Source: Flavobacteriales bacterium (lineage in GTDB: Bacteria; Bacteroidota; Bacteroidia; Flavobacteriales; Flavobacteriaceae). Taken from it: a stretch of 49,150 nucleotides of DNA. The stretch lies in the NCBI GenBank assembly GCA_003232435.1, contig QIJL01000403.1, positions 1 through 49,150 of the forward strand. Reading direction: 5' to 3'. The number at the start of each line of letters is the position of its first letter. Position 1 is the first letter of the stretch. Below the pieces are notes generated by a model. That model did not search any database and had not been told where the DNA came from. It saw only the letters and a list, made by a program, of their open reading frames with translations. Of the stretch, positions 8,850-38,319 are shown one piece after another. Made by a program: the position numbers and the translations under genes.

Positions 8850-8852
8850 GTA

Positions 8853-14632: not shown

Positions 14633-17131
14633 TTATTGGATGTTGTTGTAAAAATCATTGATTTTTGTTCCCATATCATTTTTTATCTGGGTTTGTGTCT
14701 TTGTTGTGATATCACCGAAGAACTCTGAGAGGTCAATCAGACTAAAATCAATCATCTGAAAATCTTCTGGTGAGAAACCGGTACAGTTTGGTTCTGCTGT
14801 GCTTCCCCAAGCGCCGCTCGGATCAAATGTTTTCAATTGAGGCCGTCCCTGTTCGTGGATGATTCGGCCTAGTTTTCCACCAAAAGAACAATAGACATTT
14901 TCTTCTTGGACACATCCAAAGAGAGGAACATTTCTGATGCATTGGGTCCCGATAGAGTGTGTTTGCCCGTTATCTCTAGCATCGTTTAATGCGCGTTCGT
15001 TTGATTTGCAATTTTTTAAAAAATCCAAGAGTGAAGATGAGCCATTAGAGCAGCAATTAAACCAACCTGTGTTCGAACCCGCGGGACGGCAGCTCGCAGC
15101 TTTTCCGTCAAAAATCCGGATCTGACCTATACACTGACCCGAACTTGGGTCGGTGGTGCCATCACAGATCATTCCTTCCCCTGCAGACTTAAGGACTTCC
15201 ATCATGGCGGCGGCTTCGGCAAAATCGTTTTGGCATTGGCAATCTCGGACTAAAGTTTCACCTGAGACTAATGGACAAGTGGGTGTTCCTGATACAAGGG
15301 GGCAGGTTTTGTAGAAGACATCGGTCGTATTTGTAGTTGTCCTAAATTGAGAGGTGTTTCCAGTGAGTGATGCTTGAGTATCTATGGCTGGTTTGCTGGT
15401 CTTACAGGACATTTCGCAGGGGCCAATGGATGGTGTGGATGGAAAATCGAAATCGTTGTTTTCCGAAACCCAAGTCCCTCCGTCTTTTCGGAGATCTTCA
15501 TAATAGAAGTTTGTCGGATCATGAACGATATTATCGGTAACGGTTTCTAATCGCGTTTGCGCATCACTGAAATCATAGGTTGTTCCTGTTGCACAACGGT
15601 AGGTTCGGGATTTTTCCCACCAGGTTCTACATTCGACATAAGATCCAAGGCTTCCGTTAAAAGTCTGGCAAGATGATAACGGACTGAGATTGCTTGGGTT
15701 GTAATTTGCGTATGTGATGACGTTGTCAATTGTTTCATCTTTTATTTGGCAATTAGGGTCTATATCGAGACCAGTACAAGAGTCGTTTACCGTTTCTGAA
15801 ATGTTGTCTTGTAGGTAGTTGAATTGGTAGTTCATCGTGTAAGAAGGGTTTAGACGCCCTGCACCATGACAGGTCATCACATTGACTTGTGTTCCTGCAG
15901 TATTGACACAAGTGGTTCCAGAGGCCGGGCAAGCACTTGTTGCATTTAAGCAATACTGGAAGGAAGTCGGCGGGCTGGGTAGATTAACAATTTCCAAGGT
16001 ATGCCAGTCGTCAATACCCCCTGCTGTTCCACCTCGTTCGCAATTCCAATGTGGAGTGGTGTTTGGTGCAGTATCTAAATATTGTAGGTGATAGGTAACA
16101 GGGTCGAATTGATAGGCCCGGATAAATACGAAATGGTCGGAGCAAAGCGAACCTGTCATGGTGTTGTTGATCGTATTAGAAATGCTTGTAACTGTAATGA
16201 TCCTATCTACGGTACAGGTGGGGTAGGAGGAAACAGCGGTACTGGATGCTGAAGAGCCTGTCATGAGGTTGTAATAACTGTCTGGATCTGCGCTTTGAAC
16301 AGAGACTTCAGTCGTGGTGTCTGTTGCCATTGCGCCTGCATTTCCGAAATATTGTTCAGGATTATTTGTTCCGCTGGAAGAGGAGACCGCTGAGCAGTTC
16401 GCAGTGTTTTGGCCATAATATTCGACGGAAGATCCTGAGTTTGTCACATTAGATATGGCGAATTTAGGGTCAATGGCTTGAATAGATGCGGCAGCGCCTC
16501 CCCCTAAATCGTCGAGTATTTTCGGAAAAATTGTTGTGGAAGGGCTTCCGCAACTGGCATTCACACAGTAACAGCCACCTAGGTCTGTCATCAGTGCTGG
16601 TGCGAGTGTTACATTGATTGAAGAATTGCTCTGCCAGCGGTAATAATTACAGCTTGTCCATGTGCCTGGATCGCATGAGATAGCGCCGTTGGCGCAAACC
16701 CCGGAAATTTGGAACAGGGGCGTGTATGTGTAATCAATTACCCCGTCTAAATCAGTATCAATCTCGATTAAGGGAGGATTTAAGTCATCGGTGATTGCGA
16801 TTGGATTTGTCGTTACGCTTAAAAAGGACCGGGTAGATGGGCATGAGAGTTGGGCATTAAAGGAGGTTGAATCATCCAGGGACCTCATTTGTGTATTGTT
16901 ATTTATGAGGGGGTTTGTACTTCTATTTTGAATGTCATTAGTTGAACCCATGCGTTCTAAAACCCAGTTCCCAAGATTACTCCCTGTGTCTTTAGCCGTA
17001 TGACTCGTAGCTAAGAGCAGTGTCGGCCAGCTTATTGGGGAAAAACACAGCAATACGGATGCAAATCGGATAATTTTCTCTACACCCTTAACTGCGATAT
17101 CGTCTGACCATTTCGGCCAGTGCATCTTCAT
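14633..17131 (-). CDS. traN: conjugal transfer mating pair stabilisation protein TraN (start uncertain)
   Basis: About 830-aa Cys-rich protein with a C-terminal CRPAGSNTGWFNCCSNGSS...CIRNVPLFGCVQEENVYCSFGGKLGRIIHEQGRPQLKTF.. block typical of TraN. Confidence 0.93.
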   Translation of the reverse strand: MKMHWPKWSDDIAVKGVEKIIRFASVLLCFSPISWPTLLLATSHTAKDTGSNLGNWVLERMGSTNDIQNRSTNPLINNNTQMRSLDDSTSFNAQLSCPSTRSFLSVTTNPIAITDDLNPPLIEIDTDLDGVIDYTYTPLFQISGVCANGAISCDPGTWTSCNYYRWQSNSSINVTLAPALMTDLGGCYCVNASCGSPSTTIFPKILDDLGGGAAASIQAIDPKFAISNVTNSGSSVEYYGQNTANCSAVSSSSGTNNPEQYFGNAGAMATDTTTEVSVQSADPDSYYNLMTGSSASSTAVSSYPTCTVDRIITVTSISNTINNTMTGSLCSDHFVFIRAYQFDPVTYHLQYLDTAPNTTPHWNCERGGTAGGIDDWHTLEIVNLPSPPTSFQYCLNATSACPASGTTCVNTAGTQVNVMTCHGAGRLNPSYTMNYQFNYLQDNISETVNDSCTGLDIDPNCQIKDETIDNVITYANYNPSNLSPLSSCQTFNGSLGSYVECRTWWEKSRTYRCATGTTYDFSDAQTRLETVTDNIVHDPTNFYYEDLRKDGGTWVSENNDFDFPSTPSIGPCEMSCKTSKPAIDTQASLTGNTSQFRTTTNTTDVFYKTCPLVSGTPTCPLVSGETLVRDCQCQNDFAEAAAMMEVLKSAGEGMICDGTTDPSSGQCIGQIRIFDGKAASCRPAGSNTGWFNCCSNGSSSLLDFLKNCKSNERALNDARDNGQTHSIGTQCIRNVPLFGCVQEENVYCSFGGKLGRIIHEQGRPQLKTFDPSGAWGSTAEPNCTGFSPEDFQMIDFSLIDLSEFFGDITTKTQTQIKNDMGTKINDFYNNIQ

Positions 17132-19583
17132 AAGGCAATCCCTGTGTGACAAGTGATTCAATTTCTGAGACTTCTTTTTTTTCAGATGTGTAGACATAAT
17201 AGGAATAGGGATCGACCACGAGGCGAACAATCCCTGTGCCAAAGGGTGTCTCCATGAATATTTCGGAATAATAAGGTTTTTTGCTTTTTGTACTTTTTAG
17301 CAATTCAAGTAAAAATGGATCAAAATCTATCAACTTTTCTTCTTGAGATTTCTCAAAGTCGATAGATTCCAGGAAATATTTAAAGGCGGAATTAGAATTG
17401 ATTACATCCCCAATTGCGCCCCACTTTTTCAAGTCAAGAGCAGATTGTGTGATGATCCCAAAACTACCTCCATATTTTCGAGCCCGCCTGTAACCCCCCT
17501 CTATAACCCCTTCTAAAGCCATCAATTCTCCGCCTTCCCCTAAGAATTGTGCAGCTTCATCAAAGGTGATGATTCTTTGTCGATCCTTTCTGGAGAGATA
17601 GAGATCTTGTGTTACGGCGTTGACGACTTGAAGCGTGATTACCTTGAAAAGTTCTGGTTGAGATTTGAGGTTTTCAAGTTCGAGCACAACAAATTCATCT
17701 TTAGCAATATCTAAGGTCGATGGGCCATTTACCCATCGACCGTAATTCCCTTGAGTTGTAAATTCAAACAGGTTGAATGCCATTTCATGAGCGAGACCTT
17801 TTAGACCAGTAAGATCCATTGTTTTATTGTTTGCTTTGTCAGGAAATGTTTGGAAATAGTCATAGACCAGATCGATATGGTTTTCATTTTCGGGTTGAGC
17901 TTCGTAGGCCCATGTTGCTGCCCCCTTAATTAGGGTCCTGATGGTTTCTGCTTTTTCAGGAGGGACGGAGTTGGTGGCGGAGTAGATCATTTGTAGAATG
18001 ATTGCGGTAATGATAGAAATATCTTCTGAAAAATCTCGTACATTACTGAAAGGATTGAGACAGACATTTGATTGTTGATCAAAATCGAGATATTTCCCAT
18101 TGAACATTCGGGCAAGTTTTTTAAAACTGCCTCCAATATCAATAATTCGGATGATTGCACCACTTGCGTAGTAGTTGTACAGGAGGTAATTCATGAAAAA
18201 AGATTTGCCGGATCCTGATCCTGCGGTGACAAAGAAATTAGAATTATTGACGTGTTCATCAAACATATCGATCCCACAAATCTGACCTTTTCGCCCTGCA
18301 AACGCAATGACTGGGGATCCACCTCCGGCAAAATCAGCTTGTACGGGGAGAATGGAGGAAATCGCATCGGTTGGAGCGGTAAAATCCCGTTCTAACAGAT
18401 CAATATTTTTGTCTTGGTCGTATAGGCCAAAGGGGAGGCTACTAAATAGTAGAATTGGTAGAATCCCTCGGTCTTCCTGCATAACGAATTCTTTTGCTTG
18501 CCATATCCGTTTTATTCGGGCTACAGCATCAATTAGAATTTCTTCATTCTTGTGCCAAACCCAAAGAATGGGGATAATTTTAAAAAATTGTGTCCCCTTT
18601 TCGAGTTTGTCTGCTGCCCAAAGAAATTCATCCTGTTTGCGCGCAAGCGAGGGAGCAAAACTTCCAGAACCCCTTTGAACCAAAATAAGGTTGCATTTTT
18701 TATGCAAGGTCGCTTTTTGGTTTTCAAATAAGATGTTTAGGGTATAGAGAAATGGGGTTTTAATTTGATCGCCATCTGAACGTCCACCTTGATATCCTCC
18801 AAAGAGTTCATTGGTCATCATTGGGTCGACCTGTTTTGGAAAAGATTTTGGTGTGACACATCTGAAGTAAGTATCCCCCATCTTCAATTGATTCGTTTGA
18901 TTCGATATGGGGGTTTCTGCAGAGATAATTTGTTTTCGTATAGGAATGTCATCAGTGTAGTGCAAATGGTCATGGCTTTTTTGTTGATTGAAAAACCACC
19001 ACATCCAGTCAACCAGCCATTCAACAGCAAGTGGTCTTGGTTCAAGAGAAGCACCATATAATGCTTCTTCAACGCTTTTTCTTGTGTCTTCTCGATCGGT
19101 TGCTGAGAATCCTTTTGCAGAGATGGGAAATTTTATACTTACAAATAGTCGAAAGTTTCGGACGGGTATATTTGAAAGATTCTTTAAGCCGTTTGTTCCA
19201 TCTTTGAGGAAGTTGCAAAATTCTTGAGTGGTCTTTTTTACGATGGGAAGATCCCGATTTTTTAAGTTATAAAAGGCATCAAGAAAAGGATCGATGTTGT
19301 CATCAGCGTACAATATAAACTGGAGGATGGTTCCTTCTGGAAACTCATATTGTATCAAGCCGTTGAGAGTTGCTTGCGTTTGCTCACCCGAGAAAGCCAA
19401 TGGACTGCATTCCCAAATATAGCCATGTGTATTGTCTGTATTGGTGTAAAGCTTGGTTTCCGGGTTGTATGCTAGCCAGGGTAAATAATCAGACAACTTA
19501 CTACGCTCAGTCATATTTTTTAAGTCGGCTGTGGTCATACCGCCGTTTGATCCGAAGATGTTCAGAAAATCGAATAAGGCCAT
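17088..19583 (-). CDS. traC: T4SS ATPase TraC (VirB4-like)
   Basis: Walker A FFVTAGSGSGKSFFMNYLLYNYYASGAIIRIIDIGGSFKKL; YLDFDQQSNVCLNPFSNV; RIITFDEAAQFLGEG (Walker B); YRRARKYGGSFGIITQS. Confidence 0.97.
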   Translation of the reverse strand: MALFDFLNIFGSNGGMTTADLKNMTERSKLSDYLPWLAYNPETKLYTNTDNTHGYIWECSPLAFSGEQTQATLNGLIQYEFPEGTILQFILYADDNIDPFLDAFYNLKNRDLPIVKKTTQEFCNFLKDGTNGLKNLSNIPVRNFRLFVSIKFPISAKGFSATDREDTRKSVEEALYGASLEPRPLAVEWLVDWMWWFFNQQKSHDHLHYTDDIPIRKQIISAETPISNQTNQLKMGDTYFRCVTPKSFPKQVDPMMTNELFGGYQGGRSDGDQIKTPFLYTLNILFENQKATLHKKCNLILVQRGSGSFAPSLARKQDEFLWAADKLEKGTQFFKIIPILWVWHKNEEILIDAVARIKRIWQAKEFVMQEDRGILPILLFSSLPFGLYDQDKNIDLLERDFTAPTDAISSILPVQADFAGGGSPVIAFAGRKGQICGIDMFDEHVNNSNFFVTAGSGSGKSFFMNYLLYNYYASGAIIRIIDIGGSFKKLARMFNGKYLDFDQQSNVCLNPFSNVRDFSEDISIITAIILQMIYSATNSVPPEKAETIRTLIKGAATWAYEAQPENENHIDLVYDYFQTFPDKANNKTMDLTGLKGLAHEMAFNLFEFTTQGNYGRWVNGPSTLDIAKDEFVVLELENLKSQPELFKVITLQVVNAVTQDLYLSRKDRQRIITFDEAAQFLGEGGELMALEGVIEGGYRRARKYGGSFGIITQSALDLKKWGAIGDVINSNSAFKYFLESIDFEKSQEEKLIDFDPFLLELLKSTKSKKPYYSEIFMETPFGTGIVRLVVDPYSYYVYTSEKKEVSEIESLVTQGLPYEDALAEMVRRYRS

Positions 19584-19587
19584 TAAT

Positions 19588-19689
19588 TTATCCTTTTAAG
19601 GTCCCCGGCAAAAGCCAGCCGCGTGTTTTTTGAAAGTGAATTGAGGAGGCCCCCATGTTTTCGCTTTCCTCTTTTTTGCGGGATTTCAT
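19588..19689 (-). CDS. 33-aa small ORF between traV and traC
   Basis: MKSRKKEESENMGASSIHFQKTRGWLLPGTLKG*; fills the traV-traC gap almost exactly (1 bp from the traV stop, 4 bp from traC). Not in ORF track (too short). Confidence 0.4.
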   Translation of the reverse strand: MKSRKKEESENMGASSIHFQKTRGWLLPGTLKG

Positions 19690-19690
19690 A

Positions 19691-20209
19691 TTAGTTACCT
19701 GGAAATACTTCTTGAGAATGGCTCCCAAAATTACGCTCTGTTAATTGGTTATTCAGCACCCATTTGGGTTGATCAACAATGATATAGACATAACGAGGCA
19801 TGTAGAGTTCCGTGTCTTTCCCTTCATAGGGAAGGATAAGGACTCGAATGACTTGTGGAGGCTGGATCATCGGAGGTTTGGGTTCTTTTAAAATTCCGGT
19901 CATCTTTTTTATGAGGGCATTGAAATAAGTGACTTCAAAAACCTCAGTCTCATCAGGGGTGTTGAGTAGGTCAGAAATCACCTTCTCGGTCTCTGTTGAT
20001 TGGCCCGCTGCTTTCTGTGGTTTATTTTCGTCTAAGTCTTTAGGGCCGTTAATGGATTCTTCGTAGGCCCCTGTTGTTGAAATACATTTTCCGCCAAAGG
20101 TTTCAGGACAAGAAAATTCAGCTTCATATGGGGTGAGATGTTGACAAGCGGAAAGAAATAAAAACATCCCAATTGTAATTACATTTCGCATAGTTCTTCT
20201 CCTTCGCAA
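19691..20209 (-). CDS. traV: T4SS outer-membrane lipoprotein TraV
   Basis: Signal with lipobox LSACQHLTPYEAEFSCPETFGGKCISTTGAYEES; C-terminal MIQPPQVIRVLILPYEGKDTELYMPRYVYIIVDQPKWVL. Confidence 0.92.
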   Translation of the reverse strand: MRRRRTMRNVITIGMFLFLSACQHLTPYEAEFSCPETFGGKCISTTGAYEESINGPKDLDENKPQKAAGQSTETEKVISDLLNTPDETEVFEVTYFNALIKKMTGILKEPKPPMIQPPQVIRVLILPYEGKDTELYMPRYVYIIVDQPKWVLNNQLTERNFGSHSQEVFPGN

Positions 20210-21345
20210 GTCTCTTTTATTTCTAGGTGAACGCCTTCAGAGATAATGACGGTAACGGTCTGCCCCGGAAGCATTTCAATCACTGGTGTTGCCTGTCTCG
20301 CAAGTTCCAGGTAAAGCTTTTGAATTTCTTTACTTCCGCTTGCCAAGGCACCCCCTAAAGCAGCTCTTTCAATTTTGTCTGTATCGATAATCTGAGTAGT
20401 TCCCAGTGGACTGGTACTGCTAGTCCTTGCTGAGGTTGAGAGGGCATTGCCAGCACCGCCAAATAATCCAGCGATGGCGGCAAAAGCGATAGACTCACCC
20501 ATTTTATGAACGACTCTTCCTTTAACGCCGTTTTTACTGGAACTACCGGCAACCCAGCCTTTGATCGGTTGATCAATGACGGAATGACCGGTTTTTGAGA
20601 GACAGGAGAGTGTGACTAACCTCAACATAACGGCTTCTTTTGAGAGTTTTCCGAAACCATGTGCAATGATAAAACACCCTTTTAAATTTGCCTTGATTCG
20701 GTTTGGCAGAATGGCAAGATTTTTAATTCGAAGCAGTACGGGTTCAGGTTCTCCGTTTGCCGATGCAACTGTCTCAGCATCAAGGCCGGTCAATAATGTT
20801 GCCTCCATAAAAGAAGGGGGTAAATAGATGCTGTTTTTTCCTTTTTTTTTATCTTCATCCAAAGGGCGGGTGAATTCATCCAGGAAGGGGTTGGAAGCAA
20901 CGGTGATTGCACCAAAGCTTTCTTCTGTAAAATTGATGGATTTGTTCTCAGAGGCTTTTAAGGACAGTGGTTTAGGTGGTGGTGGCAGTGGCAGGGATAA
21001 TTTATGATCTGGGGGAATTGGGACATCTAAGGTATTATTATTTTTGAGATCTAAATTAATCTGTTTGCCTTTGATGGCTTCAACTTCTTGTAGGAGTTTC
21101 TTGATTACTTCGTTTTGGTCTCTTACTGATTTTTGAGCTTCAGAAACCATGCTTTTTTGCAAGACGCCTGGATCAAGTATGATTTCTTCTCTTTGGTTGT
21201 TTTGATCAGAAACCAGAGATGACTTATCTTTCATGTTGTAAGCGATCGTAACTCCGCTTATAAAAAGGACAAGGCAAGAGACCAGAACAAATCTTCGTTT
21301 CTTAGCAGGGTTTAAGTTTTTCCAAATATCATTGAGATTAGCCAT
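20179..21345 (-). CDS. traB: T4SS core protein TraB (VirB10-like)
   Basis: N-terminal TM; TGLDAETVASANGEPEPVLLRIKNLAILPNRIKANLKGCFIIAHGFGKLSKEAVMLRLVTLSCLSKTG; GWVAGSSSKNGVKGRVVHKMGE; LPGQTVTVIISEGV. Confidence 0.96.
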   Translation of the reverse strand: MANLNDIWKNLNPAKKRRFVLVSCLVLFISGVTIAYNMKDKSSLVSDQNNQREEIILDPGVLQKSMVSEAQKSVRDQNEVIKKLLQEVEAIKGKQINLDLKNNNTLDVPIPPDHKLSLPLPPPPKPLSLKASENKSINFTEESFGAITVASNPFLDEFTRPLDEDKKKGKNSIYLPPSFMEATLLTGLDAETVASANGEPEPVLLRIKNLAILPNRIKANLKGCFIIAHGFGKLSKEAVMLRLVTLSCLSKTGHSVIDQPIKGWVAGSSSKNGVKGRVVHKMGESIAFAAIAGLFGGAGNALSTSARTSSTSPLGTTQIIDTDKIERAALGGALASGSKEIQKLYLELARQATPVIEMLPGQTVTVIISEGVHLEIKETCEGEELCEM

Positions 21346-22114
21346 TGGATTGGCCTCCCTGACGCTCGATAATAATCATGCGAGCAGAATGGCCGGGTTT
21401 AAGCGATAAAATATCGATGCTTAGGCCCATCGGTCGACGCGTCAATTCGCTGCGTAAAAAATCGGATTCTTTTAACGGGATAGTGCGAGAGATATTTTTT
21501 GATTTCAGGAGATATTCTTTAATAATGAGACCTTCTCCATCAATTTTAATTGTTCGGCGATGTGTGATTTGAATGTCCTGGAAGATCGAGATCGGATTGT
21601 TGACCATGCTTACGGTAAAGCTATCAGGAATTTTATCTGTATAGACCGCTTTGATGATTTTGAGCACTTTTTCTTCGAGAGGCAGTCCGTTCAGAAAAGT
21701 GCGGTTTTTTTTGATTGTTTTTCGGGTATTACTGGCAAGCCGAATCGTTTTGGATGGTATTAATTTTGGAGTGACTATAATGTGGTAGATATTGTCATCA
21801 CAATTTATAAAGAGTTCACTGGGAATGAAGGCATGCTGAAAGTCTGTTGGGCTTTTTTTGATAATTTTAAATTTCAGGAATGCATCTTTTTTTGTGTATT
21901 GGATCATGAGACCTTTTTCTTTAGAAAAGACGATATCAGTTATGGGTGTGGGACAAATGATCCGATTTGCATCCGTATTGCTGACCTCTATACTGGTTGC
22001 GATTTCAGGGAGAACCTGAATGATTCTTTGGCCGGGAGATTGAATTTCGGCAGAAAACCCCGGGCTTTGCAAAACAAAGAATGATAAAAGTGTCGAAATG
22101 ATTAGATATTTCAT
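21338..22114 (-). CDS. traK: T4SS core protein TraK (VirB9-like)
   Basis: IQVLPEIATSIEVSNTDANRIICPTPITDIVFSKEKG..IQYTKKDAFLKFKI; between traB and traE. Confidence 0.93.
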   Translation of the reverse strand: MKYLIISTLLSFFVLQSPGFSAEIQSPGQRIIQVLPEIATSIEVSNTDANRIICPTPITDIVFSKEKGLMIQYTKKDAFLKFKIIKKSPTDFQHAFIPSELFINCDDNIYHIIVTPKLIPSKTIRLASNTRKTIKKNRTFLNGLPLEEKVLKIIKAVYTDKIPDSFTVSMVNNPISIFQDIQITHRRTIKIDGEGLIIKEYLLKSKNISRTIPLKESDFLRSELTRRPMGLSIDILSLKPGHSARMIIIERQGGQSNG

Positions 22115-22686
22115 TCGGGGATGCCTCTCTTTTGGTCTTTAAATTGTTGAATCGGTTGAGTCAAAAAAAACTTCCCGGCAACGAGTTCGAAATTAATAAT
22201 GTAGATTCTTTTTTCACTCCCAATAGAGGATTTTGAGGTAAATTGCCTGTTTGTTCCATGAATTTCGATTTTGCCGGGGGATGAAATTATCTTTGAAATA
22301 AAGAAGCTGTTTGAGACCATCGATATTTCGATTCGATCAGCAAGGTCGTAAAGTTGTATCTTGGCTTCATCATAAGAATCTTCTGTAAAGAGTGTCAGTA
22401 CGACATCAAATTGGCGTCTTGCATTGGAAGGAGTAAAGTTGCCTATAAGTTGGATGATATATCGACTATAAGCATCCAAGGTACTCTCGGAGGCTTGGTC
22501 TCCACGGATTTCAAATGGGGTCAGTAAGGGGAGTGGGATCAGTATTGTTGTATGCGAATCAAAGGATTTTTGAATTTCGAAAGTATTCCAGGCAACCAAA
22601 ATCCCAATGATGACAACAATAAATTTTAGGAGTCTGTTTTCACCCCACATCGCGGATGTGGTGTTTAAATACCCTTTTGTGTTCAT
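22111..22686 (-). CDS. traE: T4SS protein TraE (VirB8-like)
   Basis: Single N-terminal TM; SESTLDAYSRYIIQLIGNFTPSNARRQFDVVLTLF; position between traK and traL. Confidence 0.93.
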   Translation of the reverse strand: MNTKGYLNTTSAMWGENRLLKFIVVIIGILVAWNTFEIQKSFDSHTTILIPLPLLTPFEIRGDQASESTLDAYSRYIIQLIGNFTPSNARRQFDVVLTLFTEDSYDEAKIQLYDLADRIEISMVSNSFFISKIISSPGKIEIHGTNRQFTSKSSIGSEKRIYIINFELVAGKFFLTQPIQQFKDQKRGIPE

Positions 22687-22695
22687 GGTTTTATC

Positions 22696-22965
22696 CTATT
22701 CTTGAAAGTTTTTCTCAAAATAGATTGGGTAACCTTTAAATTTGGCGAAACCGATAATGTAAAAAATGTGTTTAATAAACCCTCTCGGGTGGGAGCTTTT
22801 TATAGATTTTATGTAACAAGGCCCGATAACGATGAAGGGCAGAAACCAGATGCTGAAAATATTGGTGAGAAGATAAAATGCCACCCCGATCAGCAGTTCA
22901 TCCGCTTCAAACCATATGATTTGAAAAGGTCTGGATAAATATAATGGGAAGCGGAATTTTTGCAT
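22696..22965 (-). CDS. traL: T4SS protein TraL
   Basis: 89 aa; FRFPLYLSRPFQIIWFEADELLIGVAFYLLTNIFSIW...; FKGYPIYFEKNFQE. Confidence 0.9.
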   Translation of the reverse strand: MQKFRFPLYLSRPFQIIWFEADELLIGVAFYLLTNIFSIWFLPFIVIGPCYIKSIKSSHPRGFIKHIFYIIGFAKFKGYPIYFEKNFQE

Positions 22966-23039
22966 TACCGACGACTCCTTTCTGCTCCCTAAGCCCGTGG
23001 AGGCTCAGGGAGCAGACGAACTGGGTTATAGGGTTGTAG

Positions 23040-23378
23040 TTAAATGATCATGCCAAAACTGGCTACAACCGCGTCGGCTTGTAGGAGGATTGCTGCCGAA
23101 ACAAACGCGGCGATTGCTGGCAAGATCTCACTTTGAATAGCCCATTTACAGCCAAAGCCAACTGCAAAAATTCCAATGGCAAATCCGATTGGACCTTTAA
23201 GGATCTTATTCACAGTGATGTCATATGCGTCGTAGCCGAAATCTCCGGCTGTTGGGACAGCGATAGCCCAGGCGATTGAGGCCATGGCCAAAACAACCAT
23301 CGTTGTCGTTACAGGCATCGATAGATTTGTCCTGGCAAAAAATCTTAAGATATCGGAACGTTTCAAAAAGCCCTGCAT
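23040..23378 (-). CDS. traA: TraA-like pilin precursor
   Basis: Long leader then two hydrophobic segments (MVVLAMASIAWAIA; GPIGFAIGIFAVGFGCKWAI...ILPAIAAFVSAAILLQADAVVASFG); immediately upstream of traL. Confidence 0.85.
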   Translation of the reverse strand: MQGFLKRSDILRFFARTNLSMPVTTTMVVLAMASIAWAIAVPTAGDFGYDAYDITVNKILKGPIGFAIGIFAVGFGCKWAIQSEILPAIAAFVSAAILLQADAVVASFGMII

Positions 23379-23422
23379 AAATTCTCCTTTCTGGGATTGA
23401 GGTTCAATGATAGGGGCCAATC

Positions 23423-24181
23423 TCAAGAGGGATCATCGAGAAGAAAAGCGATCTGCTTAAAATTAGCGCCGTTTACAAATTGGTTATTAATCCAGAGCGC
23501 GGGGGTTCCCCGGACATTTAATTGCTTTCCAATTTGTTCGTGTTGATTGAGGAGAGAAATGACGGCCTCCTCGTCGCACGGCTCTGGTAGGTTTTTGTCT
23601 AACTTGCCAGAGAGCGCATCTTTATATGCCTGTTGTCTATCTTGAGCGCAGAGAATATGTTGTGACTTTTTCCTCGCTTCTGGGTGAATTTCTATGATCG
23701 GAAAAAGAAAGACGTAACGCGTCAGGTCATTTCTCTTTTCAAAGTATTCATGCGTTTTTCGGCAAAAAGGACAATCAGGGTCAACGACTTCAATAATGAT
23801 GTTGGGTCCATTCCCAATTTTAATGGCTTTGTCGAGCGGAAGGTCTTTGATCTTTGTTGAGGCGAGTTCGTTTTTTCTTTTCTCTGTAAGATTGACTTTA
23901 TTGAAAGTCCAGAGCTCTCCAAAAAAGGTTATTTTTGTTCTGGGGTGATAGTAAACGACAGCATCTTTGATAGTAAGTTCATACACATCAGGAATATTTG
24001 TTTTTGCAATCCTATCGATTTCCATATTTGGAAAGTGAGACCGAATAAGCTTTGCGGCCTCAAGGGGTTCTTCATGGGCTCTAGCGATGGAAGAAAAGGA
24101 AATAAGAAAAAGGCTTACGAGAAAGAAGATGATGCAATGAAAAAGATATTTAATATTAGATCTTTTAATTATTGAATTCAT
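23423..24181 (-). CDS. dsbC: DsbC-like thiol:disulfide interchange protein
   Basis: IIIEVVDPDCPFCRKTHEYFEKRNDLTRYVFLFPI-EIHPEA; C-terminal GTPALWINNQFVNGANF. Confidence 0.92.
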   Translation of the reverse strand: MNSIIKRSNIKYLFHCIIFFLVSLFLISFSSIARAHEEPLEAAKLIRSHFPNMEIDRIAKTNIPDVYELTIKDAVVYYHPRTKITFFGELWTFNKVNLTEKRKNELASTKIKDLPLDKAIKIGNGPNIIIEVVDPDCPFCRKTHEYFEKRNDLTRYVFLFPIIEIHPEARKKSQHILCAQDRQQAYKDALSGKLDKNLPEPCDEEAVISLLNQHEQIGKQLNVRGTPALWINNQFVNGANFKQIAFLLDDPS

Positions 24182-24192
24182 ACTGACCCTCC

Positions 24193-24837
24193 TTATTCGA
24201 CAACAATCTCAACTCTTTGGTTGAGAGATCGTTTATTTGAAATCGGACAACAACTTCCCTTTCCTGACACACGTGTCGCCTGGAAACCTTTTGTTTGGAA
24301 AAATCGTTCTACGGCAAGCGCCCGTTGGATGGAGAGATTGGCATTGTATGTATCTGAGCCAATATCACTGGTATACCCAGATAGAGTGACGCTCTTTTTA
24401 TTCTTGGTCGTATTGATCATTTTTAAGATCTCACCGAGTCGTTCGATACTATCGGGTGTGAGAATGTCGGAATCGAAAGTAAAATGGATTGTATGTTTCT
24501 GAGGTCTGATTGGTTCTTCAGGTTGTGGTGTTGTTTGTTTTTTTATTTTTGTTTCTATTAAAGGTTCGTTCAGTTGAGCCAGTATTTCTGGGGCAATTAC
24601 TTTCGAGCCGGATTCTCTAATAACGAGGGGGAAGGTAGGCTTGATAATTAAAGAACCCGGCTCTGGGCAAGTCCCACAAATGATAAAGGTATCCACCTCT
24701 AAATATGAGACTTCATTCTCGGAGGGGTAACGAATGTTTTCCGTGTAGATTCCTCCTGCGATAGCTTGACTTTCTGAATGTATGGCCAAGTTTAACATCC
24801 CGAATATAAGTAAAAAACCCCAGATTTTAAATCTCAA
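24193..24837 (-). CDS. OmpA-family C-terminal domain protein
   Basis: IHFTFDSDILTPDSIERLGEILKMIN..KSVTLSGYTSDIGSDTYNANLSIQRALAVERFFQTKGFQATRVSGKG...SLNQRVEIVVE. Confidence 0.9.
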   Translation of the reverse strand: MRFKIWGFLLIFGMLNLAIHSESQAIAGGIYTENIRYPSENEVSYLEVDTFIICGTCPEPGSLIIKPTFPLVIRESGSKVIAPEILAQLNEPLIETKIKKQTTPQPEEPIRPQKHTIHFTFDSDILTPDSIERLGEILKMINTTKNKKSVTLSGYTSDIGSDTYNANLSIQRALAVERFFQTKGFQATRVSGKGSCCPISNKRSLNQRVEIVVE

Positions 24838-25003
24838 TTAAATCCCCTGTGCATCTTATTTTTGTACCAATTAAGATTATGCTAGCACGGATAATTCACA
24901 AAAACTCATGCGAATTTCTTTGAAAAAGTAAAGAAAAACGTAAGAGTTTCAGTGAATAAAGTGGGTTATCCTAAAACAAAGTTTTGTCCATCGGAGATGT
25001 CTT

Positions 25004-25978
25004 TTGCAGAATAAATTTCAGATTGGGAAAGGAATATTTGGTAGGACATTAAAGGAGAGAGATCGGCATAAACATTTGTTGATTACCCCGCGTTCAAAGG
25101 AAGATACACAACGATTTTGGTTGAAAATTCTACAGATGGAGTTTTCGCAACCATGTTCTACAATCATTGTAACAAGGGATATAAATCTTGTTACGGAGGT
25201 TGAAAGGTTACTCCCAAAAACTAAACAAGTGCATTATATAGATCCAGATTGCCAGCACACCTTGTCACTAAATCCGCTATTTCATTCAACTTCATCGACC
25301 TCAAAATGGCTTACCGAATTTTTTGTATGGGATAAAGAGAAGTCAGTAAAAAATATTTTTCGGATCTTAACTCAGATTGCAATTACCGATACGCATTCAG
25401 AAAAGTCACTTGCATATGTTTTTAGATTAGCGGGACTGGGAAGACTTCAACTAATAGAATATTTACAGTTTCAGGGGCTTCCTCTTTTTATTTCTGCACG
25501 GCAGCAGTTTAAGAAATTACCGATAGATGAGCAGGAACGAGCCCTGCAAGAGATTTATGGCTGTTTGGCTCTCTTACAAACTGACTATGCTCAACGGGTA
25601 TTATCTGAGCAAAAATTTTATGCTCCGATACTTTTTCATGAGCCCTCTGTTGTGATTGTATATGTCTCACCTGGGAGTAAAGCTAAGAGTTTACTTCTAA
25701 GGCTACTGGTTCATTCTATTGTTCATCAAGTTATTGATGCATCTCCTAAGAATGACAGTGGTTCGATTTATCTACATCTTGATGGAATGGACCTAGTGCC
25801 ATCCGATTATTTTTTAGAACTTCAGGGATCTCGCGTCGGAACCGTTTGTTTAGCGGATGAATGGCGATCATTTGCAACAAGATCACATTTTCATATCGAC
25901 ATAGAAAATTCAAAAAAAGGAAGTTTGAGTACTTTAAAAACGGTAAAGAATTTTCATCCTGTCATGATCCCTGCATAA
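25004..25978 (+). CDS. Divergent, truncated VirD4/TraG (T4CP)-like protein lacking Walker A
   Basis: 324 aa from a TTG start; segments TIIVTRDINLVTEVERLLPKTKQVHYIDPDCQHTLSLNPLF and ILFHEPSVVIVYVSPGSKAKSLLLRLLVHSIVHQVIDASPKNDSGSIYLHLDGM align by eye with the neighbouring T4CP; no N-terminal TM. Confidence 0.55.
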   Translation: MQNKFQIGKGIFGRTLKERDRHKHLLITPRSKEDTQRFWLKILQMEFSQPCSTIIVTRDINLVTEVERLLPKTKQVHYIDPDCQHTLSLNPLFHSTSSTSKWLTEFFVWDKEKSVKNIFRILTQIAITDTHSEKSLAYVFRLAGLGRLQLIEYLQFQGLPLFISARQQFKKLPIDEQERALQEIYGCLALLQTDYAQRVLSEQKFYAPILFHEPSVVIVYVSPGSKAKSLLLRLLVHSIVHQVIDASPKNDSGSIYLHLDGMDLVPSDYFLELQGSRVGTVCLADEWRSFATRSHFHIDIENSKKGSLSTLKTVKNFHPVMIPA

Positions 25979-25991: not shown

Positions 25992-27764
25992 ATGAATTGG
26001 GCGGTTTTATCTAATCAAGGGTTCCTGCTTCTTTGCGGAGGGATATTTTTAATCTTGATCTTGGTCGGCTGGGTGAACAAATCGGGTGGGAGGGGGACGG
26101 GCCGTTATGCTACGACACCTGAGATATTACGACATATGGGTAATTGGGCGAGATTCCCTTTGGCCCCCTTGATGTTTGTTTTTGTTTTGTTGGGGATTGC
26201 TTTGCCTGCTCTTGGGATCATCTATCGTGTTGATCCGCAGATGATTATGAACATTCAGAATCGGTGGCCTAATTATTTGGGTGTGTTGTTGATTGCTTCT
26301 GTCCTTGTTTTTTGGTTTATTTTTGAAGTCTATCTTCTTCCTGCCGACAAAAACCGCTTTCCGCTGGGAGAGAAGTTAGGGGTGTTCTCTATCAACCTTT
26401 CTCTTCCGGAAAAAGCGCGTTTTGAACATATTCGCCTTATGGGTCGTGCTGGGACAGGCAAGACCAGCAGTTTCATGTTTCCACAACTCCTTGAAGATGC
26501 GGCCGGAAATTGCACGTCTATCTTTTTAGATGTCAAATCACCTGAAGCCTATAAAACGATTGCAGGGGCTTGGACGGCGCGAGGGAAAAAAGTGATTTTG
26601 TTTGATCCTTTTCAAAAAGATTGCGTTGGTTTCGATCCATTGGCGTCGGTAGATCAAAGAGGTCTGGGTCAAATTGTAGAAACGGTTTACGGCAAGATTG
26701 ACACCAACGAGAACGCAACCAGCTTATGGTTTGAAGAACAGGAGCGGCGTTTCTTTTCTTTATTGTGTGAGCTGGTGATGGGCTTTAAAGATCCGGGACA
26801 ACGTTCTTTACCAATGGTCTATCAGCTTGCACTAAGAGGGATTCCTGCCATCCAAGAGGTTGTTACGTATTGCCGAAATACAAATTTACAAGAACAATTC
26901 GAACCTTATTTTAAAAATATGAATCGAATTTCTGATGTGATTAGTGGAGTACTGAACCGTTTAGATCTTTTTGCTCAACCTGAGATAGCGGCCGCATTTT
27001 CTCGATCAGATCTCGATATCGATTTATTATTTCGTGAACCAGTATTGCTCGTTATCGCAAGCCCGCATAGTAATGCCAAAGCCCGACTCGGGGCATCCAT
27101 ATTGCTTCGAGCCATCATGCAAAAAGTTTATGCAAGTCCGGTTCGCAAAAAGAAAGACGGGGTATCCGTTTTTTTCTACCTGGATGAGTTTTATGCCTTA
27201 CATCTACCGGATATGGCAGATTTTGCGAATACGGCCCGATCCGCAAGGGTTGGAATTTTGACAGGTTTGCAAACACCAGAGCAACTCCTTCGGTATAAGC
27301 GGCATGAGGTTGCCTCAATATCCATTAATACAAAGGTTGAGGTCTATCTCCAGGGGTGTGATCCCCAAACATGTGAAGTGTTAAGTAAACGTCTTGGTCG
27401 CAGAGTCATTAAAGAGAAACGGCGTTCCCGATCGATTAAACATGGGACAAGTGTCTCAGTATCTTACCTGGAGATTTTACTTGAAACGCCTGATTCCATC
27501 GAAAATTTACCTGAAGATCAGGCATTAATTTTTTGCGCAGGGATGCGGGCCATAAAAATAAAACAAATGCCATTTTATAAAACCCATCGGTATAAGAAGC
27601 AAATCGATTTGCCGGTTACTGCGTATCGACCGAACCTTGATCCTTTATCCCCTCCCCATTTTAAAGACATTGATATCCCTGTCTTTGGTCTGGAAACACA
27701 GGATGAGGATCTCACAGCATCAAAGCATGTGAAAAAAGGAGAAGAGGATATTATGCGATTTTGA
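25992..27764 (+). CDS. Type IV coupling protein, VirD4/TraG/TraD family
   Basis: N-terminal TMs; Walker A GRAGTGKTSSFMFPQLL; IFLDVKSPEAYKTIAGAWTARGKKVILFDP; Walker B VSVFFYLDEFYAL; TGLQTPEQLL. Confidence 0.95.
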   Translation: MNWAVLSNQGFLLLCGGIFLILILVGWVNKSGGRGTGRYATTPEILRHMGNWARFPLAPLMFVFVLLGIALPALGIIYRVDPQMIMNIQNRWPNYLGVLLIASVLVFWFIFEVYLLPADKNRFPLGEKLGVFSINLSLPEKARFEHIRLMGRAGTGKTSSFMFPQLLEDAAGNCTSIFLDVKSPEAYKTIAGAWTARGKKVILFDPFQKDCVGFDPLASVDQRGLGQIVETVYGKIDTNENATSLWFEEQERRFFSLLCELVMGFKDPGQRSLPMVYQLALRGIPAIQEVVTYCRNTNLQEQFEPYFKNMNRISDVISGVLNRLDLFAQPEIAAAFSRSDLDIDLLFREPVLLVIASPHSNAKARLGASILLRAIMQKVYASPVRKKKDGVSVFFYLDEFYALHLPDMADFANTARSARVGILTGLQTPEQLLRYKRHEVASISINTKVEVYLQGCDPQTCEVLSKRLGRRVIKEKRRSRSIKHGTSVSVSYLEILLETPDSIENLPEDQALIFCAGMRAIKIKQMPFYKTHRYKKQIDLPVTAYRPNLDPLSPPHFKDIDIPVFGLETQDEDLTASKHVKKGEEDIMRF

Positions 27765-27813: not shown

Positions 27814-29529
27814 ATGGGTCAGATTAATTTATTTGAGGAGGTTAAACGCAGGGCTGATTTATTGCACTTAGTGGAGAATTTTGCTGAAGGAAAAATTTCT
27901 GGCAATGGCAATAAACGGCAGTTATCAGTATGTCCTTTTTGTAAGGGGCATGGCTGTTTTTCTATCTCTCTTGAGATACAACTCTTCAATTGTTTCCAGT
28001 GCCCTTCCCCCGGTTCCGGGGGAGATATTTTCACATTTATGCTTAAGTTAAGAGGCTATGACCGTTTTTCTGCCCTTAAAGAGATTGCGGAGCTGATTGG
28101 CTATGCCCTACCTGAAAAAAGTAAACCCTCAAAGCGTGATATCCGCGATGAGATTGCGCTCAAACTCAAGACGGATTGGAATTTGCCGGAGGCAAATGTG
28201 TTTTGGGAGTATCTAACAGTAACTCGGAAACTTTCTCCTGATGTGCTTAGTGCACATGATATTGGGTTCTATCGTGGCCGCCAGGAGATGATGGAATATT
28301 TGAGAAAGAAGGGATTTGGACTTTCCGAAATTAAATCGTCAGGGATTTTAACGCGAAATTTTGGAGAATTTTACAAGATCATATTTTCTTGGCGAGGTCG
28401 TAACGGGAAAGTAGAAGGTTTTGTGGGTGCAGCGACCAAAGGACAACTTGAAAGAATCAATCGGTCTGAAAAAGATCTTTATCCAAAATATAAAAAAAAT
28501 TATGATTTTCAAGTAACAGCCCCATTTAATCACATTTTTGCAAAACGTTGGGTTCCAACAGATCGTGCTTTGATTTTTGTTGAAGGGATTGTGGATTGTC
28601 TTCATCTTTTGTCGATTGGGATTAAAAATGTGATTGCTTTAGGGGGTTCCGCATTTGATGCTGGCTTTATTGGAGCCTTACAGACAACCGATTACGAACG
28701 ATTCATTTTTTTATTTGATGCCGATCCGGCGGGGACAAAGGCAACCCGTAGAACTATGCAGATAATTTGGGAAAATGGTGCGAAATTTAGTTTGTATGTT
28801 GCTCAGATTGTTTATACAGATCCAGATGATGACTCTCGTATGATTAAGGACCCAGACGAGCTAATAAAGAAGCTTGGGCCTGATGTAATGAGATCCGTTG
28901 TTCAAGACCCTGTGCGGGCGGGTTCCTGGTTGGTTGGTGTGTTGTGGGATGAAAATGACATGAAAAACCCCTTGGTGCGGGATCAGGTCTTGGAAGAAAT
29001 TGGGGGGCTTTGGGGTTTTATAGAAGACGTTATTGAAAAAAAGGAAATGTTGATTGTTTTATCGAAAGCATGCGGAGTTCCACAAGACAGCTTGCTTAAA
29101 ACGATTGAAAAGCATGGCAGTGCAAAACTTGTTATTTCGACGAAGATATCTCCTTTAAATGAACAAAATGACCTTTCCTCACGTGATAAAGGACTGATAA
29201 AACAGTTAAAGGAAGATTTGAGTGAGGTTAAAAAAGAAGTCAAACTTTTAAAACAGGAGAAGAAGCTTTTGTTTATGGCTTACGCCAGTTTTGTTACCTA
29301 CATAAAGGTATTGGCTAGGGCAAGACAAGTCTGGCATATATCTCGAATCTCCGATGGTCATGTTTATCTCATAAAACTGATTAAAAAGAAGTCTGAAGGT
29401 GTGCCAAGGAAAATTAAACAGATTGAGCAGATGTTTTCAAAAGTTAAATTGAACAATCCGGATCAGATCCAGAAGGAGCTGACGACCCTCTTAAAGGAGA
29501 ACCAAGAGGAAGATAGGAGGATAACGTGA
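27814..29529 (+). CDS. DnaG-like DNA primase (CHC2-type zinc finger + Toprim)
   Basis: CPFCKGHGCFSISLEIQLFNCFQCPSPGSGGDIFTFMLKLRGYDRFSALKEIAELIG; Toprim ALIFVEGIVDCLHLLSIGIKNVIALGGSAF...FIFLFDADPAGTKATRR. Confidence 0.94.
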   Translation: MGQINLFEEVKRRADLLHLVENFAEGKISGNGNKRQLSVCPFCKGHGCFSISLEIQLFNCFQCPSPGSGGDIFTFMLKLRGYDRFSALKEIAELIGYALPEKSKPSKRDIRDEIALKLKTDWNLPEANVFWEYLTVTRKLSPDVLSAHDIGFYRGRQEMMEYLRKKGFGLSEIKSSGILTRNFGEFYKIIFSWRGRNGKVEGFVGAATKGQLERINRSEKDLYPKYKKNYDFQVTAPFNHIFAKRWVPTDRALIFVEGIVDCLHLLSIGIKNVIALGGSAFDAGFIGALQTTDYERFIFLFDADPAGTKATRRTMQIIWENGAKFSLYVAQIVYTDPDDDSRMIKDPDELIKKLGPDVMRSVVQDPVRAGSWLVGVLWDENDMKNPLVRDQVLEEIGGLWGFIEDVIEKKEMLIVLSKACGVPQDSLLKTIEKHGSAKLVISTKISPLNEQNDLSSRDKGLIKQLKEDLSEVKKEVKLLKQEKKLLFMAYASFVTYIKVLARARQVWHISRISDGHVYLIKLIKKKSEGVPRKIKQIEQMFSKVKLNNPDQIQKELTTLLKENQEEDRRIT

Positions 29530-29813
29530 CAATAGAAGAAATTATTGATTTCCTGAAACCAGGCGATGTAATGACACATCAACTCTGTGGGGGAGGATTG
29601 ACAGAGCATTTTTTCATTGGGATGGATGGAAATTCTATCTGTGGATTTCCGACGACAGATACAATGCTGATTGAGGGTAGTGCTTTGGAATTCAATGCTA
29701 TTTCTCCCAAGAACATCACTCATATTAATCGAATTTCGGTATCGGTAGATGTTTTGGAGTTTGTTAAAATTCAGCCTCACAGACCGTATGCAAAAATCGG
29801 AGAATCATTTTGA
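29526..29813 (+). CDS. hypothetical protein
   Basis: 95 aa, overlaps the stop/start of both neighbours (translational coupling). Confidence 0.75.
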   Translation: MTIEEIIDFLKPGDVMTHQLCGGGLTEHFFIGMDGNSICGFPTTDTMLIEGSALEFNAISPKNITHINRISVSVDVLEFVKIQPHRPYAKIGESF

Positions 29814-30631
29814 GAAAGGGGCTTTATTTAACGGATCGAGATATCGATATGTTTGTGTATCTTGCGTATGGCCCGGCGTTTGAGGATGATCTGAATATAC
29901 GATTCTTCATTTCTGAAGGAAAGAAGGTTTTAAGGAAAGTGTTTCTTCGTCGGCTAAAAAAACTCATTGAATATAAATATATTGAGTGTTATTGGCCGCC
30001 CCGAGCTTTGGTCAGAAATAAGCAGCGGCAAGGGATATGTATCTTAGCTGCTGCGGGCATAAAACAAATAAATTATGAATCCTTAGTGCCACATTCACGG
30101 GTACGCCATGTAAAGTTGGACACGAGAACCATATTTCACGAAGTGATGCTAACGCGCCTGATTCGGAAGATTTATGATGGCGAGCCGAGGCGGTATCAGG
30201 TAACACGTATGGAGGATCATTTTGATCTCGCAAAACTGATCCAAAGAGCACGCATGAAAAGAATTCCTGATTTGAAGTTTACGGTGCAGCTGATCAATGG
30301 ATCTTATTTTAGTTTTATTGTTGAGATAGATGCTGGGACAACGCATATGCCTGAATTTATGCAGAAACTTCAGACGTTCATGACATTACTGCCCGCACTG
30401 ACCCCCAAAGGAGTTAAGGAACCTGTTGGAATGCTCGTTGTCTGTCATACGGCGGCGCGGATGGCTGAACTTCAGAAGGCTGTTATGGAGAGTCATGTCA
30501 TGACGCGTATTAAATTCAATTTTTTATTTAATACGATCTATGGCATTGATAATCATCTGGGGTTGTTCAATCCTTGGTATCGTGCAGATGGTCAAAAGAT
30601 AGAGGTTATTTTTAGAAAAGGCCAAGGGTAA
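29810..30631 (+). CDS. replication-relaxation family protein
   Basis: YLTDRDIDMFVYLAYGPAF N-terminal winged-helix-like; RIPDLKFTVQLINGSYFSFIVEIDAGTTHMPEFMQKL motif typical of the family. Confidence 0.7.
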   Translation: MRKGLYLTDRDIDMFVYLAYGPAFEDDLNIRFFISEGKKVLRKVFLRRLKKLIEYKYIECYWPPRALVRNKQRQGICILAAAGIKQINYESLVPHSRVRHVKLDTRTIFHEVMLTRLIRKIYDGEPRRYQVTRMEDHFDLAKLIQRARMKRIPDLKFTVQLINGSYFSFIVEIDAGTTHMPEFMQKLQTFMTLLPALTPKGVKEPVGMLVVCHTAARMAELQKAVMESHVMTRIKFNFLFNTIYGIDNHLGLFNPWYRADGQKIEVIFRKGQG

Positions 30632-35700: not shown

Positions 35701-38319
35701 CTACTGAACTTTTTTGACGCAACGAAATCCAATATTAAAGTACCGAGTAAATGGTTCAGTCCTATTATGGCTCGTACAGAGCGTAAAAGCCTGTTTGTTG
35801 ATCCAGGAGCCGCCGCGAAGCACTTCTCTGTCTTTACCTTTGTCATCCAAGTGATCGATCCACTCCCATATATTTCCCGCCATCTGAGCACATCCAGAGG
35901 GATTGTCTAACTTAGGATAGCTCTCGACGGAAACAACCTTTTTAAGTCCTGATTCTTCTGTGTTACACTTTTCTGTATCAAAGACATTCCCCCAGGGATA
36001 CCGTCTCCCACTTCTTCCACGTGCCGCCTTCTCCCACTGGATTTCTGTCGGAAGGGACAGGCCATATGCATAGGAATAGGCTTTTGCCCCATACCATGAG
36101 ACATAAATGACGGGATAATTCCCATAGTTCTTCATAACCTTGTATAGATCTTCTTCTTTAACAAGTCTGCATCGTTCATTTTTATAGCTTCCATCAAGAT
36201 CGATCCATTTTCTTAAGGTGTTTTGATCCGGTTTCGTTTGATTGAGAAATTTACAGTAGTCTTCATTAATTACCGGGAATTTATCCATCATGTACGCTTC
36301 CTTTACATCCAGAAGCTCGACAGGCCACTCATCTTTATGTTCATAAGAACCGTAAAGAAATTCTCCTTTGGGAATCAAGATCATATTGCCTTCGGGTTTT
36401 TTTGCTGAGAATGCGTTCTGTCGCTCTTCTTCCCTGAAAATCTCTTCAAGCCACTTTCTCGCCTTTTCATGCGACTTTGCCAGCGTATCTCGTACTTGCA
36501 AGGCATAGGTTCTTACTTGGTCGCTTTCGATTTTAAACAGGATGTCATGCCAGAATGCAATTTCGCTTTCTGGGTCTTCGGATTGAAGTGTGATCAGTTC
36601 GGAGAAGAAAAGACCGAGTTCCTGTTGATCGTAGGTCAGTTGGTGCAGTGTTTGAAAGAGTTTCTCGGCTTCTCCTCCTTCGCGCATGATTACTAATTGT
36701 TTTGCGGCAAAATATTCCTGAAAATTGGCGTGGTGATATTGATGTGTTTTTCCTTCAGATATCCCGGGAATAGCTTTGATGTCGGATTTTGATTCGATGT
36801 CTAGTACATGCTTGACCATACTAATCAAAAGTTCCGCCTGTTCCATTTCACCCAGGTGTTTATAAAAACGTCTGGCATTTTTCTTATGAAAAATTTGTTT
36901 TTCGCCTTTTGTAAGGAGTAGAAGAGAAAGCTCACTTAATTCGTCAAGCAAAACCTCATAAAAATATTCTGGCCGTTTGACTCCCGCTCTTCTATCATTC
37001 TTGAGCTGTTTTTCCATGAGGCGTTCGGTAAATCTTTCGAAAAGTTCTGCTTTCCCTCTGATCTGCGCCACTTGCCCGTCAAGGGCCAGAGACTTCACCA
37101 GCTTGGCTAAAAGCGGAATGGAAACGAGATCTTTTGGTACCTTCCTGAGCAAGGGTTTGATCGGGAAACGCGCCCCGAAATATCTTGAAAGTTGATCCTC
37201 ATCAAATGTTTGGATTGTATAGCCTTGAAGACCATCCACGTGGGTTTCGAGTTCCTTCAAGCGATGGGGTCGGGTGCTGATGATTAAAGACGCGTTGCCG
37301 ATCGCCTTATTTATAAAATTGTGGATGATGGATGTTTGTGAGATATCGATCTGGTCATAGGCATCGATGATGAAGATGATCCGGTTCTTTCTTAAAAGTT
37401 GGCTGATCAGGCCCTTGGTCTTGGCTTCCTTGAGTCCAATTTGTCTCAGCGCGGGTTCCAAGCGGGTTTCGATCTTTTTTTTAAGGTCGGCTAATTCTCC
37501 CGATTGAATGTCGGCGGTGTGGAGGTAGAGTGCGAGTTTTTTTTCGTTAAGAAACTTCATTTCAAGGTGAAGCATGAACAGGGTCTTTCCAACACCAGCG
37601 TTTCCGATAAAAACCATCCGCTTCCCTTGTTGCTTAATTATTTCATCATCAATGGATGTGACAGGTTCTGGCTTGCCTTCCCCGTCATTTCCCAAGCAAT
37701 CAATACGATTTTCGACATAGCAAAATTCCTTTGCATGGTCTTTACCTTCTCCTATTTTTTTGTCGAACTCTTTTTTTAGATCTTTGATCTGATCTTGGCA
37801 GTAGACGTCAATAATGTCTTGAACCTCTTGAGAGGAGATGTAGGTATCGAGACGATTAATGATTCTGCGCTGATCTTCTGGTTGCAAGAAGGGATTATTT
37901 TTGATCTCCAAACGGAGGTAGTCCCAGAAATAACCAAAGATCAATTCAAAGTGATCAGGAGGGAGTAAGGCGTAAACGGTATTCTGAACCTCTCGTTGAT
38001 AGGCCGCATAGAGTTTACCGCTATCAGGGCCTTCAAATTGCGTATCTGTAAAAAACCGCATGTATTCTTCGACAAAGGCCGGGTTTTTGAAAAGGGATTT
38101 TCCAAAGTGTTCTTCTAAGTGTCCCACCTCTATCGGTAATGCCTCGGTCTTAGACAAAAGGGTTTTGTAGGCGCTGTGGATGCCTCGGACGAGGGCTGCA
38201 CGCTTTTGGACGTCATTGAGGACATTTTTTATGAAGGGATCGACAGCTTTTTTCGCTAAATCTAAAAAGATATCCCCTAAAAGATTTTTTGCTAAAGCGA
38301 GTGTGAAGACTTCAAGCAT
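35701..38319 (-). CDS. NACHT/STAND NTPase fused to C-terminal FGE-sulfatase (SUMF1-like) domain
   Basis: Walker A MVFIGNAGVGKTLFMLHLEMKF; Walker B RIIFIIDAYDQID; LIISTRPHRL; C-terminal MILIPKGEFLYGSYEHKDEWPVELLDVKEAYMMDKFPVINEDYCKFLN...YPVIYVSWYGAKAYSYAYGLSLPTEIQWEKAARG..GRRYPWGN...GCAQMAGNIWEWI...EVLRGGSW...IGFRCVKK. Confidence 0.93.
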   Translation of the reverse strand: MLEVFTLALAKNLLGDIFLDLAKKAVDPFIKNVLNDVQKRAALVRGIHSAYKTLLSKTEALPIEVGHLEEHFGKSLFKNPAFVEEYMRFFTDTQFEGPDSGKLYAAYQREVQNTVYALLPPDHFELIFGYFWDYLRLEIKNNPFLQPEDQRRIINRLDTYISSQEVQDIIDVYCQDQIKDLKKEFDKKIGEGKDHAKEFCYVENRIDCLGNDGEGKPEPVTSIDDEIIKQQGKRMVFIGNAGVGKTLFMLHLEMKFLNEKKLALYLHTADIQSGELADLKKKIETRLEPALRQIGLKEAKTKGLISQLLRKNRIIFIIDAYDQIDISQTSIIHNFINKAIGNASLIISTRPHRLKELETHVDGLQGYTIQTFDEDQLSRYFGARFPIKPLLRKVPKDLVSIPLLAKLVKSLALDGQVAQIRGKAELFERFTERLMEKQLKNDRRAGVKRPEYFYEVLLDELSELSLLLLTKGEKQIFHKKNARRFYKHLGEMEQAELLISMVKHVLDIESKSDIKAIPGISEGKTHQYHHANFQEYFAAKQLVIMREGGEAEKLFQTLHQLTYDQQELGLFFSELITLQSEDPESEIAFWHDILFKIESDQVRTYALQVRDTLAKSHEKARKWLEEIFREEERQNAFSAKKPEGNMILIPKGEFLYGSYEHKDEWPVELLDVKEAYMMDKFPVINEDYCKFLNQTKPDQNTLRKWIDLDGSYKNERCRLVKEEDLYKVMKNYGNYPVIYVSWYGAKAYSYAYGLSLPTEIQWEKAARGRSGRRYPWGNVFDTEKCNTEESGLKKVVSVESYPKLDNPSGCAQMAGNIWEWIDHLDDKGKDREVLRGGSWINKQAFTLCTSHNRTEPFTRYFNIGFRCVKKVQ

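Follow-up and report, generated by a model that had tools for sequence, protein, structure and literature searches.

Coupling proteins (T4CPs) are regarded as homohexamers and, to our knowledge, how they stay idle until substrate arrives is known in few cases, such as that of CagZ and Cagbeta. In Helicobacter pylori, the regulator CagZ traps Cagbeta as an inactive monomer via its all-alpha domain until substrate arrives (PMC9886983). In type VII secretion, the D2, D3 and DUF domains of EccC are degenerate, a helix replaces the P-loop, and D2 and D3 have been proposed to be regulators (PMC11154593). Known coupling ATPases also work with accessory subunits, as in the DotL-DotM-DotN T4CC (PMC12857230).

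The protein described here, encoded directly upstream of a VirD4-type T4CP, can be set beside each of these systems. It shares with the VirD4/TraG/TrwB T4CPs the fold core, the all-alpha insertion, clear homology and a place in the same operon, but it has no TM anchor, P-loop or arginine finger, is about half as long and does not match PF02534. Like CagZ, it is presumably a soluble accessory protein devoted to one coupling ATPase; unlike CagZ, it is a copy of its own presumed target. With EccC/EssC it has in common an FtsK/HerA-class domain that has lost its Walker motifs and, as the model of a relative suggests, a degenerate Walker A in the form of an extended helix, but in EccC these domains share a polypeptide with the active ATPase, whereas the paralog has a gene to itself. 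Legionella Dot/Icm likewise has a coupling ATPase with dedicated accessory subunits (DotL-DotM-DotN); there the accessory role falls to other proteins, whereas the paralog is predicted to resemble DotL itself by fold. No description of the paralog was found in the literature within reach of our search, outside which most subscription journals lie.

Results

Genomic context of the T4CP operon

The window, i.e. the whole stretch of 49,150 bases that was analysed, is one entire contig out of the 669 that make up a draft genome (84% complete, 6% contamination). Its transfer region is laid out as follows.

5499-24837, minus strand: F-type T4SS operon
24838-25003, no strand: divergent intergenic region between the paralog/T4CP operon (plus) and the F-type transfer operon (minus)
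25004-25978, plus strand: degenerate coupling-protein paralog, a soluble pseudo-ATPase of 324 aa with a TTG start
25992-27764, plus strand: intact VirD4-type coupling protein (Pfam PF02534, 1.5e-34; TraG-D_C, 3.5e-14)
27814-29529, plus strand: DnaG-like primase (CHC2 zinc finger, Toprim), in the same operon and conserved in the relatives checked
29810-30631, plus strand: replication-relaxation-like protein (weak PF13814), the last gene of the conserved block

The paralog frame is open over 25004-25978, with a GGAG about 8 bases 5′ of the TTG start, and the T4CP ATG lies 13 bases past the paralog stop. The T4CP has three hydrophobic N-terminal peaks, the P-loop GRAGTGKT and the Walker B motif YLDE. 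The product of 29810-30631 also has a weak PHROG match to 'replication initiation by nicking'. The F-type operon encodes OmpA-like, DsbC-like and pilin-size proteins together with TraL, TraE, TraK, TraB, TraV, TraC, TraN, TraU, TraF, TraH and TraG, where TraL and TraE were placed by synteny with annotated plasmids and TraV by position only. The scan of the window ORFs brought up no classical relaxase, which makes the product of 29810-30631 a candidate to supply the relaxase or relaxosome function. Elsewhere in the window, 35701-38319 encodes a single protein with a NACHT domain and an FGE-sulfatase (formylglycine-generating-like) domain, which recalls defence or signalling architectures, and 42751-46602 encodes a 1283-aa protein with sub-threshold matches only (DrrA_P4M, E=0.005; SNF2-related, E=0.09).

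The product of 25004-25978 is a distant paralog of the adjacent T4CP

A preliminary description of this DNA had proposed, from collinear sequence blocks, that 25004-25978 encodes a paralog of the T4CP. These blocks are present, in the same order, in the BLASTP alignment of the two proteins (E=3e-7, 23% identity over 296 columns). The profile-profile alignment that it recommended was run with hhalign on five paralogs and nine T4CPs, giving a probability of 99 and E=4.2e-18 over 287 columns, and a larger set of eight paralogs and 13 T4CPs gave E=8.6e-20. When all 231 window ORFs of at least 60 aa were searched with a T4CP profile built without the window, two matched, namely the T4CP and the paralog; the paralog scored 24.4 bits (E=1e-7), compared with 4.9 bits for the best of 1000 shuffles of it. 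General resources did not reveal this relationship: no Pfam, NCBIfam or PHROG family covered the paralog, no Pfam or NCBIfam T4CP model matched it at E<=1 (PF02534 included), a PDB sequence search was empty, and the paralog alone as query retrieved no relatives from plasmids, viral contigs or 98 relatives of the window's genome.

AlphaFold2 models were obtained for the window paralog (pLDDT 64.7, a moderate confidence that is lowest at residues 1-30 and 204-216) and for the relative L006 (pLDDT 78.2, pTM 0.80); as one set of five sequences underlies both, they are only partly independent. In a Foldseek search of the PDB, all 24 matches of the window model at E<=0.001 were to the coupling proteins TrwB or Cagbeta, and the L006 model ranked DotL, Cagbeta and TrwB at the top, followed by HerA and VirB4. 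The FtsK/HerA-class nucleotide-domain fold with an all-alpha insertion is therefore found in the paralog by both profile alignment (hhalign E=4e-18) and predicted structure (TrwB, Cagbeta, DotL). A VirD4-like match and a VirD4-like fold, on which the preliminary description had made its proposal depend, were thus both obtained. No relation to CagZ was seen: the PDB sequence search gave nothing, and the structure matches in entry 8dol were Cagbeta-sized chains of 498-540 residues.

Two other origins were considered and rejected. A VirB4-type origin disagrees with the ranking of VirB4 chains below T4CPs and with the significant sequence match to the adjacent T4CP, and a frameshifted or truncated T4CP is ruled out by the intact frame and by conserved motifs of the paralog's own in eight loci. 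The profile alignment, the two structure predictions and the eight loci agree that 25004-25978 encodes a genuine, if distant, paralog of the VirD4-type T4CP next to it.

ATPase motifs and membrane anchor are lost while the core is kept

Three segments of the paralog gene correspond to diagnostic parts of a T4CP.

25073-25120, plus strand: former Walker A region (HLLITPRSKEDTQRFW), without Gly and without the catalytic Lys; none of eight homologs matches
25298-25615, plus strand: retained all-alpha-domain-like helical insertion, residues about 99-204 (AlphaFold2 model and T4CP alignment)
25766-25792, plus strand: former Walker B, IYLHLDGMD, with the acidic pair DE changed to DG in the window copy

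Motif loss in the eight paralogs was tallied at 103 aligned positions where 13 T4CPs of the window T4CP's lineage do not vary. The Walker A consensus GxxGxGK[ST] is gone, the T4CP residues G151, G154, G156 and K157 being matched in 0/8, and the same is true of R416 (the arginine-finger position) and motif-III Q427, which were placed by their spacing from R375 and Q386 of TrwB. The LDV stretch after the strand that follows the P-loop is missing from all eight, and in L009 and L035 the entire P-loop stretch is deleted, including the first strand and the P-loop helix. In the L006 model, strand 26-31 leads almost directly into helix 34-49, with no room for a P-loop. The loss of the P-loop claimed in the preliminary description thus holds for all eight members. 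The claimed change of Walker B from DE to DG was confirmed for the window copy, but the letters vary among relatives (DE in L006, EE in L033; DS, DW, EG and GG elsewhere), with D398 kept in five of the eight and E399 in two; DG is the state of the window copy and not a family rule. The absence of a TM anchor was likewise borne out by hydropathy, the maximum over 19 residues being 1.16 in the paralog vs three peaks of at least 2.5 in the T4CP.

Other parts of the parental protein are retained. The structural residues P206, L273, G283 and G421 are present in all eight paralogs, and the predicted helices at 99-201 sit between strands, in a segment that hhalign aligns with its T4CP counterpart. 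Nucleotide-domain core and all-alpha domain are thus both still present in the paralog. The family also has conserved motifs of its own, e.g. CSSIV, DPDHPxSLSLNPLF and YAPI, and a uniform length of about 300-340 aa, roughly half that of a T4CP.

The paralog is paired with the T4CP in all eight loci, but the T4CP is not always paired with it

Relatives were recovered only through the T4CP profile and the paralog profile. The T4CP scan of genome contigs yielded six loci, each from a MAG whose title reads Nitrospirota or Manganitrophaceae/Manganitrophus, the plasmid collection yielded Candidatus Manganitrophus plasmids with the same operon, and the paralog profile found further members among 271 genomes of the Nitrospirota class. 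In a phylum-wide draw of 395 genomes the paralog profile detected no further strong member, its weaker matches being longer frames of 463-777 aa, taken to be coupling proteins. Among 396 genomes of the window's own phylum, a profile search gave no other case. Eight paralogs were found in total (the window, L006, L007, L009, L011, L033, L034 and L035), and the seven outside the window all come from Nitrospirota-class genomes; most relatives are MAGs. This survey, which the preliminary description had suggested as a check, revealed conserved pairing: in all eight loci the T4CP gene follows the paralog immediately on the same strand, with 3 to about 30 bases between them.

T4CPs without the paralog occur in two clades of the same lineage, one formed by the Manganitrophus plasmids (L003, L004, L005) and L037, the other by L036, L038 and probably L008, where 118 upstream bases are visible and hold no homolog. 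Because of these, the paralog is accessory. The primase and replication-relaxation genes are conserved in the relatives checked and are also present in the paralog-free L003, L036, L037 and L038. An uncharacterised protein of 339-344 aa, distinct in family from the paralog and 71% identical between the two loci, is encoded directly before the T4CP in L036 (6329-7348) and before the paralog in L009 (3659-4693), so that presence and absence of the paralog can be compared at one site. In L008 a fragment resembling this protein precedes the T4CP. Several of these elements also encode Band 7/SPFH (stomatin-like) proteins close to their transfer operons (window 2805-3890; L009 1162-2157; L011 12745-14592; L035 8261-9259; L036 3863-4855); the window copy was identified with Pfam, those of the relatives by eye.

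The transfer region has its closest relatives in Nitrospirota MAGs and on Candidatus Manganitrophus plasmids, and the window genome belongs to a different order. Considering that the paralog/T4CP pair is absent from the other sampled genomes of the window genome's order and phylum and that all relatives are in Nitrospirota, the window results from either horizontal transfer or mis-binning, between which composition does not decide.

Evolution and selection

In the tree, the eight paralogs form one clade (support 100/100), which joins the T4CPs of the window T4CP's lineage against three outgroup T4CPs (100/99). The point of duplication is uncertain, because branches are long and the split that sets the T4CPs apart is supported by only 70/96. 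Branching within the paralogs mirrors that of the T4CPs ({L006, L033}, {L007, L011}, {L009, L035}), and the distances of the two families are correlated (Mantel r=0.93; none of 10080 permutations as high), which shows joint inheritance but is by itself no sign of contact. The paralog evolves at roughly twice the rate of the T4CP; mean distances are 0.66 for the paralog and 0.43 for the T4CP. Frames are nevertheless intact in all eight paralogs, at 23-37% identity to the window copy. For L007/L011, the one pair close enough for rates, paralog dN/dS was 0.18 (NG86) to 0.30 (YN00), compared with 0.10-0.12 for the T4CPs of the same pair; at a dS of 0.7-1.1 these values are rough, but being well below 1 they argue against a dead gene.

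Discussion

Building on paralogy, fold, motif loss, lack of a TM segment, one-to-one adjacency to the T4CP, joint inheritance and purifying selection, all established computationally, the best reading of the paralog is that of a soluble pseudo-ATPase that serves the T4CP of F-type conjugation elements as a partner, either regulating it or acting as an adaptor. Rather than being a DNA-transfer motor itself, it probably works with the motor or controls it. A single duplication in or near the base of the window T4CP's lineage would have given rise to a copy from which membrane anchor, P-loop and arginine finger then disappeared and which stayed as an accessory subunit of the coupling complex, and we consider this history, together with T4CP binding and a gate or adaptor role, fairly probable. 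Made together with the T4CP, as the operon suggests, the paralog would most plausibly bind it, because it is soluble, has lost all ATPase motifs and is encoded directly beside the T4CP. Operon position, joint inheritance and shared fold all point to such binding, but adjacency and joint divergence could also be explained by an operon inherited as a block. The contact would be with the cytosolic part of the T4CP, probably through a parental surface such as the flank of the nucleotide domain or the all-alpha domain. The paralog may then keep the T4CP from pumping until substrate arrives, for which CagZ and Cagbeta are a precedent, or it may present the substrate or relaxosome to the T4CP. In L003/L004/L005, L037, L036 and L038 the T4CP can do without it, since it is absent there.

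The preliminary description had envisaged mixed hexamers or regulation. That the paralog enters the T4CP ring as a non-catalytic subunit, e.g. of an asymmetric DNA pump, would agree with the fact that two parts of a ring-forming protein, the nucleotide-domain core and the all-alpha domain, are retained and with a tight gene spacing that permits matched dosage; it is unlikely, however, given the loss of the cis P-loop, R416 and Q427 in all eight paralogs, the further loss of the first strand and P-loop helix in L009 and L035, and the lack of the membrane part. A mixed ring is less favoured than a gate or adaptor, since a subunit that has lost both P-loop and finger would leave the sites on either face without function, and regulation is thus the half of the earlier proposal that fits better.

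We give rather little credence to a paralog that acts apart from the T4CP, for instance as a relaxosome or primase adaptor using an old DNA- or protein-binding surface. The operon does continue with the DnaG-like primase and replication-relaxation-like genes in the relatives checked, and the all-alpha domain of VirD4 homologs has a part in substrate recognition (PMC9886983), but L003, L036, L037 and L038 have both genes without the paralog, so neither needs it. Finally, a functionless, decaying duplicate would account for the fast evolution and for the absence from several relatives, but is hardly credible in view of intact frames at such low identity, a dN/dS well below 1 in the one measurable pair, uniform length and motifs peculiar to the family.

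With the paralog, F-type conjugation elements gain a protein family that is not yet listed. It is a doubtful prospect, but F-type systems in Nitrospirota may as a rule have a conjugative DNA pump whose ring mixes active and permanently dead paralogs, or one whose assembly is controlled by its own dead copy. A dead paralog encoded beside its motor offers a genetically simple system in which to ask whether a pseudo-enzyme gates a conjugation motor or makes it asymmetric.
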